NCBI RefSeq assembly: GCF_009852415.1
Contig: NZ_WOXS01000002.1
Location: 5,000,001-5,064,000 of the forward strand
Length of the DNA: 64,000 bases
Direction of reading: 5' to 3'
Source of the DNA: Streptomyces sp. Tu 3180
GTDB lineage: Bacteria > Actinomycetota > Actinomycetes > Streptomycetales > Streptomycetaceae
Below the pieces are notes generated by a model that worked only from the letters and a program-made list of their open reading frames with translations, was not told where the DNA came from and did no database searches. Positions 60,835-63,090 of the stretch are shown piece after piece. A program made the translations under genes and the position numbers. Numbering within the stretch: position 1 is the first letter of the stretch; the number at the start of each line of letters is the position of its first letter.

Positions 60835-61152
60835 TCAGATCCTGCCCCGGCACAGCTCCAGCAGGGTCATCGCGAGCGTGGTGCCCGGCTTGCCCAGCGC
60901 GTCCCGGTAGTGGGCGAGGACCTCCATCTCGCGGGAGAGGTTCACGCGCCGGCCGCCGGAGGCGATCCGTTCCTCCTGGATGACGGCCGACACGGCCATC
61001 CGTTCCTGCACCAGGCCGATGATCCGGTCGTCGAGCGCGTCGATCCGCTCGCGGGCGCCGGTGATCACCTCGGCGGCCTCGGCGGTGCGGGCGCCGGTCC
61101 TCTCGGCGGGCCGTGCCGGCGTGGACCTCGTCGTGGCGGCGGTGACGGTCAT
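60835..61152 (-). CDS. Chorismate mutase
   Basis: AroQ-class enzyme converting chorismate to prephenate for Phe and Tyr. 105 residues with the helical pattern R-x-R-I-D-A-L-D-x-x-I, the conserved catalytic Arg and Lys/Gln positions (IIGLVQERMAVSAVIQEER), and a C-terminus ELCRGRI. The ATG at 61152 fits. A leader peptide with Phe and Tyr codons and an attenuator hairpin precede it, pointing to control by aromatic aminoacyl-tRNA supply. Confidence 0.88.
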   Translation of the reverse strand: MTVTAATTRSTPARPAERTGARTAEAAEVITGARERIDALDDRIIGLVQERMAVSAVIQEERIASGGRRVNLSREMEVLAHYRDALGKPGTTLAMTLLELCRGRI

Positions 61153-61211
61153 GTCGGGGCTCCTCGGTGGGCGGGTGCGGGGTGCCCCGGAGCGACAGGA
61201 CCCGGGAAACG

Positions 61212-61248
61212 CCAGGCGCCCCGGACCTTGTCGGCCCGGGGCGCCTGG
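61212..61248 (-). terminator. Attenuator hairpin upstream of chorismate mutase
   Basis: 13-bp perfect stem (CCAGGCGCCCCGG) between the leader peptide stop and the chorismate mutase start. It is positioned as a transcription terminator inside the leader. Confidence 0.8.
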
Positions 61249-61267
61249 GAAGTCGCTTGTCAGTTGC

Positions 61268-61339
61268 TCAAGCAGCACGACCATGGCAGCCGGCGGGCCG
61301 GTTGCCATAGGTAAAGAGGAAGGTCGGGTGCGTGAGCAT
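61268..61339 (-). CDS. Leader peptide of chorismate mutase (Phe/Tyr attenuation)
   Basis: The 23-codon reading frame ATG..TGA encodes MLTHPTFLFTYGNRPAGCHG followed by RAA. It contains Phe-Leu-Phe-Thr-Tyr, with TTC, TTT and TAT codons, the last two rare in Streptomyces. The hairpin GGCAACCGGC/GCCGGCTGCC (61285-61306) lies right after the Tyr codon and could act as the competing structure. The frame, the codon choice and the downstream terminator together make a leader. No strong ribosome binding site is visible. Confidence 0.75.
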   Translation of the reverse strand: MLTHPTFLFTYGNRPAGCHGRAA

Positions 61340-61461
61340 GGCGCCCAGTATGCCGCGCCTTCGCGGAGCGTCCAACACGGATCGCATGGTGAGACGCGCA
61401 TCCGCGCGGTGCCGTGCGGTGCCGCCCCGGGAGCGCGGGCGGGCGTCCACGCCCACCCCGG

Positions 61462-61509: not shown

Positions 61510-63090
61510 GTGTCATCAGCGACTCCCGCTGCCAACGCGCCCGACACCGTCCTGGTCGTCGACTTCGGCGCACAGTACGCCCAGCTCATCGCCCGTCGCG
61601 TCCGCGAGGCGCGGGTCTACAGCGAGATCGTGCCGAGCACCATGCCGGTCGAGGAGATCCTCGCCAAGAACCCCGCGGCGATCATCCTGTCCGGCGGCCC
61701 CTCGTCCGTGTACGAGGAGGGCGCCCCCCGCCTCGACCGCGAGATCTTCGAGGCCGGCGTCCCCGTCTTCGGCATGTGCTACGGCTTCCAGCTCATGGCC
61801 CAGAGCCTGGGCGGCCAGGTGGACAACACCGGCGCCCGTGAGTACGGCCGTACGGACCTGCACGTCTCCAGGACGTCCTCCACCCTCTTCGAGGGCACCC
61901 CGGACGAGCAGGACGTCTGGATGTCGCACGGCGACGCCTGCTCCGCCGCCCCCGAGGGCTTCACCGTCACCGCCTCCACGGACGTCGTGCCGGTCGCCGC
62001 GTTCGAGAACGACGACAAGAAGCTCTACGGCGTCCAGTACCACCCCGAGGTGATGCACTCCACGCACGGGCAGCAGGTGCTGGAGCACTTCCTGTACCGG
62101 GGCGCGGGCCTGTCCCCGAACTGGACCACGGGCAATGTGATCGACGAGCAGGTCGAGGCGATCCGCGAGCTGGTCGGCGACAAGCGCGCCATCTGCGGCC
62201 TGTCCGGCGGCGTGGACTCCGCCGTCGCCGCGGCCCTCGTCCAGAAGGCCATCGGCTCCCAGCTGACCTGCGTGTACGTCGACCACGGCCTGATGCGCAA
62301 GGGCGAGACCGAGCAGGTCGAGAAGGACTTCGTGGCCGCGACCGGCGTCCAGCTGAAGGTCGTGGACGCGTCGGAGCGGTTCCTCACCGCGCTCAAGGGA
62401 GTCTCGGACCCCGAGGAGAAGCGGAAGATCATCGGCCGCGAGTTCATCCGGGTCTTCGAGCAGGCCCAGGCCGAGATCATCGCGGACGAGGGCCCGGCGG
62501 TGGAGTTCCTGGTCCAGGGCACGCTCTACCCGGACGTCGTCGAGTCCGGCGGCGGCACCGGCACCGCCAACATCAAGTCCCACCACAACGTCGGCGGCCT
62601 CCCCGAGGACCTCGAGTTCAAGCTGATCGAGCCGCTGCGCAAGCTGTTCAAGGACGAGGTCCGGATGGTCGGCCAGGAGCTCGGCCTGCCGGAGGAGATC
62701 GTCCAGCGCCAGCCGTTCCCCGGTCCGGGGCTCGGCATCCGCATCGTCGGCGAGGTGACCAAGGAGCGGCTGGACCTGCTCCGCGAGGCCGACGCCATCG
62801 CCCGTGAGGAGCTGACCGCGGCCGGTCTCGACCGGGACATCTGGCAGTGCCCGGTGGTCCTGCTCGCGGACGTGCGCTCGGTGGGCGTCCAGGGTGACGG
62901 CCGGACCTACGGCCACCCGATCGTCCTGCGTCCGGTCTCCAGCGAGGACGCCATGACCGCCGACTGGTCCCGGCTGCCGTACGACGTCCTCGCGAAGATC
63001 TCGACCCGCATCACCAACGAGGTGCGGGACGTCAACCGCGTCGTCCTCGACGTGACCTCCAAGCCGCCGGGGACCATCGAGTGGGAGTAG
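61510..63090 (+). CDS. guaA: GMP synthase (glutamine-hydrolysing)
   Basis: Amidates XMP to GMP. 526 residues: class I glutamine amidotransferase ([11 protein letters not shown] with the Cys nucleophile, and YHPEV-x-H with His/Glu), the ATP pyrophosphatase P-loop [12 protein letters not shown], and a dimerisation domain ending KPPGTIEWE. The GTG at 61510 is the usual start. It completes the guanine branch with guaB. Confidence 0.98.

Follow-up and report, generated by a model that had tools for sequence, protein, structure and literature searches.

The window, a stretch of 64,000 nt from contig NZ_WOXS01000002.1 of Streptomyces sp. Tu 3180 whose positions serve as coordinates throughout, contains a gene for a chorismate mutase of the AroQ type (105 aa, 60835..61152) with the Shine-Dalgarno sequence GAGGAG at 61160..61165. 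Chorismate mutase is the entry enzyme of phenylalanine and tyrosine synthesis. Matches above cut-off to NCBIfam NF005894 (E = 6e-36) and to Pfam CM_2 support the identity that a first-pass annotation had given to the gene. On the other side of the intergenic leader lies guaA (61510-63090, plus strand), while chorismate mutase and all elements described in the following are located on the minus strand. The 23-residue leader ORF proposed earlier is indeed found in the sequence at 61268..61339 and encodes the putative peptide MLTHPTFLFTYGNRPAGCHGRAA with the codons ATG CTC ACG CAC CCG ACC TTC CTC TTT ACC TAT GGC AAC CGG CCC GCC GGC TGC CAT GGT CGT GCT GCT TGA. Two Phe codons and one Tyr codon fall, as had been noted, within a run of five, TTC CTC TTT ACC TAT (Phe-Leu-Phe-Thr-Tyr, 61307..61321), in which TTT occupies 61313-61315 and TAT 61307-61309. 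The accompanying remark on rare codon choice holds for TTT and TAT, which account for 7 of 240 Phe codons (~3%) and 5 of 256 Tyr codons (~2%) across the likely genes of the window, but not for the first Phe codon, which is the common TTC.

Upstream of the leader, a -10 hexamer CATACT (61347..61352) ends 7 nt 5' of the ATG, and a -35-like hexamer TTGGAC (61370..61375) is found 17 nt 5' of the -10 box. Among 100 aligned loci from Streptomycetaceae, 89 have a -10-like hexamer, mostly CATACT, 6-7 nt 5' of an in-frame start, and 36 of these 89 have TTG at a spacing of 16-18 nt, so that the -35 element is only partly conserved. The short distance between the -10 box and the start codon implies a leaderless or nearly leaderless leader mRNA; the published leaders of S. 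lividans are likewise mostly leaderless (PMC8079986).

A hairpin at the Tyr codon had been recognized before and is confirmed by folding and alignment as hairpin 1 (ATGGCAaCCGGcccgCCGGcTGCCAT, 61283..61308), which begins with the last two bases of TAT and is predicted to block the antiterminator. Its 3' arm is shared with the 5' arm of a predicted antiterminator, GGCuGCCaUGG (61281..61291), whose 3' arm CCAGGCGCC (61240..61248) is at the same time the outer 5' arm of the terminator. This antiterminator pairing, GGCUGCCAUGG/CCAGGCGCC, did not appear in the first-pass annotation and is backed here by ribosome-masked folds, covariation and a swap test. It encloses a small hairpin GCUUG...CAAGC (61255..61273), seen in folding and covariation, that holds the leader stop codon. 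The terminator hairpin that had been placed before the structural gene is present at 61212..61248, but its stem CCAGGCGCCCCGGGCC/GGTCCGGGGCGCCTGG comprises 16 bp, one of them a G-U pair, instead of the 13 bp given earlier; it has a 5-nt loop and a stability of about -39.5 kcal/mol. It is followed by a weak U-containing tail, CGTTTCCC (61204..61211), and with 3 U in 8 positions the tail CGUUUCCC is not a real U-tract. A content of 3 U in 8 is also the most frequent one at the 100 loci, and a consensus scan for intrinsic terminators did not call the terminator. Directly after it, an extra small hairpin CCCGG...CCGGGG (61185-61206) was observed, apparently also in many relatives.

Within the genus, 148 of 150 genomes have a match to this type of chorismate mutase, and the leader, which was looked for in 70 of them, was present in every upstream region read. 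When 121 genomes of the family were scanned with a covariance model built from 66 upstream regions, 105 gave a match to the element, the weakest of these matches covering only the terminator, at unrelated genes. Second matches of the model in other family genomes (L141-L155) were likewise dismissed as terminators of unrelated genes. All 100 aligned Streptomycetaceae loci of this chorismate mutase carry the element, which rules out a chance ORF. In 14 family genomes, picked mainly because the model had detected no clear element or a first search no such gene, this enzyme type was matched in none, indicating that the element goes with this gene. A chorismate mutase of some kind was found in nine of ten genomes searched further, including the window's own genome, and the genomes without the attenuated enzyme mostly still have the canonical type.

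Conservation of the leader peptide, which the first-pass annotation had put forward as a check, is borne out at the decisive positions, as Phe is retained at the UUU position in 99 and Tyr at the UAU position in 98 of the 100 loci. The codons UUU and UAU themselves each occur in 96 loci. The positions next to them are variable, and the codon that separates the two is mostly ACC or AGC. At codon -4, the upstream Phe position, 65 loci encode Phe and all 65 use TTC. Since the neighboring codons vary and the upstream Phe is always encoded by TTC, the two rare codons are kept specifically. The choice of UAU is explained in part by the contribution of its last two bases to hairpin 1. UUU is unpaired in the folds and its choice is not accounted for by pairing; its third base is probably best explained by selection on decoding. 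Natural variants in which the element is partly decayed, by loss of the Phe or Tyr codon or by alteration of the terminator, occur at L040, L038, L135 and L140; the Phe codon is missing at L038 and the Tyr codon at L135 and L140.

Downstream of the Tyr codon, selection acts on the RNA. The peptide after Tyr-Gly often reads RPAGCHGRAA, but three loci (L011, L064 and L067) have an indel in the loop of the hairpin that puts the codons behind Tyr-Gly into another frame, giving for example RPVRLPWSCA. The hairpin arms are nevertheless identical at these loci, and the RNA pairing is kept. A function of the GCHGRAA segment as a peptide was ruled out on these grounds.

The 211-nt leader folds at -108.3 kcal/mol and is more stable than all 200 dinucleotide shuffles (z = -4.2). 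For the masked folds, the footprint of a ribosome positioned on UUU or UAU was left out and the sequence up to the terminator 5' arm was folded. In these folds, GGCuGCCaUGG paired with CCAGGCGCC around the GCUUG/CAAGC hairpin, with -34.1 kcal/mol for the Phe stall and -21.6 kcal/mol for the Tyr stall. With the ribosome placed on the stop codon, the antiterminator pairing was gone from the masked fold. A similar antiterminator is predicted at 93 of the 100 loci, and in the two exceptions inspected the automatic parse had taken in the whole terminator. A second possible outer antiterminator helix between the hairpin 1 loop and the terminator core was weakly supported.

The first-pass annotation had also proposed to look for covariation of the hairpins in other Streptomyces, and in the Streptomycetaceae alignment the combination of hairpin 1 and terminator does covary, with 95% paired cells and 13 pairs showing changes on both sides. 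The corresponding values for the antiterminator are 84% and 10. In each of five measures, the two pairing sets score above every one of 500 shuffles, and they perform better than slid versions, with relatedness only partly removed. Covariation is strongest in the terminator, where 11 of 15 modelled pairs have changed on both sides, while hairpin 1, which is paired in 91% of cells among 98 distinct sequences, has few two-sided changes because its sequence hardly varies. In a swap test with 55 diverse loci, native antiterminator halves were superior to exchanged ones (z -4.7 for the Phe stall and -2.2 for the Tyr stall) compared with -1.0 and +0.2 for controls; the hairpin 1 arms gave -2.7 and the terminator arms -12.2, relatedness again being only partly removed. 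Two hallmarks of the attenuator class are thus found at this locus: folds, swap test and covariation agree on mutually exclusive hairpin 1, antiterminator and terminator structures, and the leader ORF, whose translation is predicted, contains codons for the end products of the downstream enzyme's branch.

The element is very likely a ribosome-mediated transcription attenuator by which chorismate mutase is expressed according to how much charged tRNA-Phe and tRNA-Tyr is available. Transcription would begin at or beside the leader AUG, and hairpin 1 would form while the leading ribosome translates. When Phe- or Tyr-tRNA is scarce, the ribosome would stall with UUU or UAU in the A site and cover the 5' arm of hairpin 1, the freed 3' arm could then pair with the outer 5' arm of the terminator, and RNA polymerase would enter the gene because the terminator is not formed. 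With both tRNAs charged, the ribosome would reach and cover the UGA-bearing small hairpin inside the antiterminator, such that hairpin 1 and the 16-bp terminator would win and transcription would stop. In our folds of the complete transcript, the terminator always prevails in stability, hence the model needs kinetic, co-transcriptional folding. Ribosome stalling, termination in vivo, the direction of the response and the physiological signal are what we infer from the sequence. A point against an attenuator is that the near-invariant codons amount to one Phe and one Tyr, whereas many classical leaders have more.

Alternatively, the leader might respond to a single amino acid, with only the Tyr stall or only the Phe stall being productive and the other codon incidental. 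The masked folds would agree with such a sensor, as the Tyr stall masks the whole 5' arm of hairpin 1 and the Phe stall only its outer part, and L038, L135 and L140 do without one of the codons. Nevertheless, the almost complete retention of both residues in Streptomycetaceae (99 and 98 of 100) and their recurrence in other families make a single sensor rather unlikely. With a similar, if slightly smaller, likelihood, stalling could act on how chorismate mutase is translated, on the stability of its mRNA or on the access of Rho instead of on an intrinsic terminator. The hairpin without U-tract fits this explanation, and hairpins of this kind in Streptomyces may mark Rho-dependent or processed ends (PMC8269248). 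However, U-poor 'I-shaped' terminators are known in GC-rich bacteria (PMC8269248), the Shine-Dalgarno sequence is situated about 47 nt past the hairpin and outside of it, and covariation is strongest precisely in the 16-bp GC stem and the alternative pairing that it takes part in. An arrest of the nascent chain by a motif F-x-Y-G in response to a small molecule instead of uncharged tRNA is highly improbable, because the core FTYG, although nearly invariant in Streptomycetaceae, varies outside of them (FFYG, RFYG, SFYG, YFYG), its Gly is explained by the participation of GGC in RNA pairing, and the residues before the core, which would occupy the exit tunnel, differ in identity and number.

Attenuation at this branch of metabolism has precedents. 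The pheA and pheST attenuators of gamma-proteobacteria (cited in PMC1262725) combine a leader peptide that contains Phe codons with a hairpin, an antiterminator and a terminator, and pheA acts in the branch from chorismate to Phe. The chorismate mutase leader shares with them the arrangement of leader peptide and alternative hairpins before an enzyme of this branch, but it has codons for both Phe and Tyr, no more than one or two of either, a leaderless start and a U-poor, GC-rich terminator, and it gave no Rfam match above threshold. The trpL leaders of Streptomyces and Corynebacterium are closer in being actinobacterial, in their leaderless leader ORF and in the logic of three hairpins; in contrast to the leader described here, they sense Trp (WWW), control trpE and have terminators that end in poly-U (PMC1262725, PMC8079986). 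Leaders that respond to several amino acids are represented by ilvB1 of Mycobacterium tuberculosis (PMC13236596) and ilvBNC of Corynebacterium (PMC10272879), in which LVVI serves to sense all products of the branch. These belong to the branched-chain pathway and were tested experimentally, with codon replacement abolishing the induction of M. tuberculosis ilvB1 (PMC13236596), whereas the chorismate mutase attenuator is a prediction from sequence.

No Rfam family matched at gathering score in the window, and the leader region gave only sub-threshold matches at chance level, so that no described Rfam leader family, T-box or riboswitch was recognized. Seliverstov et al. (2005) stated that they observed no conserved regulatory RNA elements ahead of Phe/Tyr operons in Actinobacteria (PMC1262725), and none of the eight leaders listed for S. 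lividans is for Phe or Tyr (PMC8079986). We found no description of a chorismate mutase leader from Streptomyces or mycobacteria in a literature search that did not extend to Lopatovskaya et al. 2010 (Mol Biol 44:128), a possible earlier source, or to the supplements of Streptomyces Term-seq studies. The kind of attenuator is thus already known, and its Phe/Tyr member at chorismate mutase is not described in the literature searched. A conserved Phe/Tyr switch at the entry step of the branch would fill a gap among the known actinobacterial leaders, and the leader would be a compact reporter of aromatic amino acid supply as well as a direct engineering target in producers of many aromatic natural products.

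The same genome encodes a second, more canonical chorismate mutase (C2:2318811-2319047, minus strand) without the leader, indicating that the putative switch controls one of two isozymes. A comparable leader was looked for at this gene, at class II DAHP synthase and at prephenate dehydratase and was present at none of them, and a wider aromatic regulon in this genome was rejected on these grounds. The rest of the genome gave no second full-length element and no more than partial matches with the terminator stem, and a weak model match (26 bits) at C2:3415526 was discarded as it has neither a Phe/Tyr leader nor chorismate mutase. At L226, a trp leader MFAHPTQNWWWTASPAAH with a terminator is arranged divergently to class II DAHP synthase (C2:2429477-2430772, opposite strand). 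Over its first 18 bases, this trpL (ATGTTCGCGCACCCGACC) has only 2 mismatches to the beginning of the chorismate mutase leader (ATGCTCACGCACCCGACC), and this likeness suggests shared ancestry or a constraint imposed by leaderless initiation.

Outside Streptomycetaceae, full-length matches of the model led to two further groups of leaders. In Nocardiopsidaceae (L177-L225), 48 of 49 records show a leader MQRNFWRFYGYRP... in front of type I DAHP synthase, and the one exception is cut near its edge. This leader contains Phe, Trp and Tyr codons and comes with a terminator. DAHP synthase catalyzes a step that the pathways to Phe, Trp and Tyr share. This makes the Nocardiopsidaceae leader a candidate sensor of all three, and predicts that one leader can integrate three aromatic amino acids. 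In other families of Actinomycetes, leaders of the types MTRSAFFFYGSG, MLDKRRFFYGYRSAVPVV and MSLHSFYGGRARSPLCR lie upstream of chorismate mutase, usually with a GC-rich hairpin next to them. Such Phe-Tyr leaders were found at 12 of 19 loci, compared with 0.05 expected from shuffles; at the other 7 chorismate mutase loci outside Streptomycetaceae the motif detected no leader, and one of these has RFYGGR in a longer frame. On balance, we lean towards an old, class-wide family of aromatic attenuators in Actinomycetes, possibly kin to trpL, in which the leader codons reflect the branch point at which the controlled enzyme acts (Phe and Tyr at chorismate mutase in many families; Phe, Trp and Tyr at DAHP synthase in Nocardiopsidaceae) and which controls one of the two isozymes in Streptomyces. 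Among the individual families, RRFFYGYR leaders precede chorismate mutase in f4 (L235, L242 and L245) and SFYGGR or LFYGDR leaders in f18 (L239, L246 and L247), and the hairpins downstream of these leaders are different.
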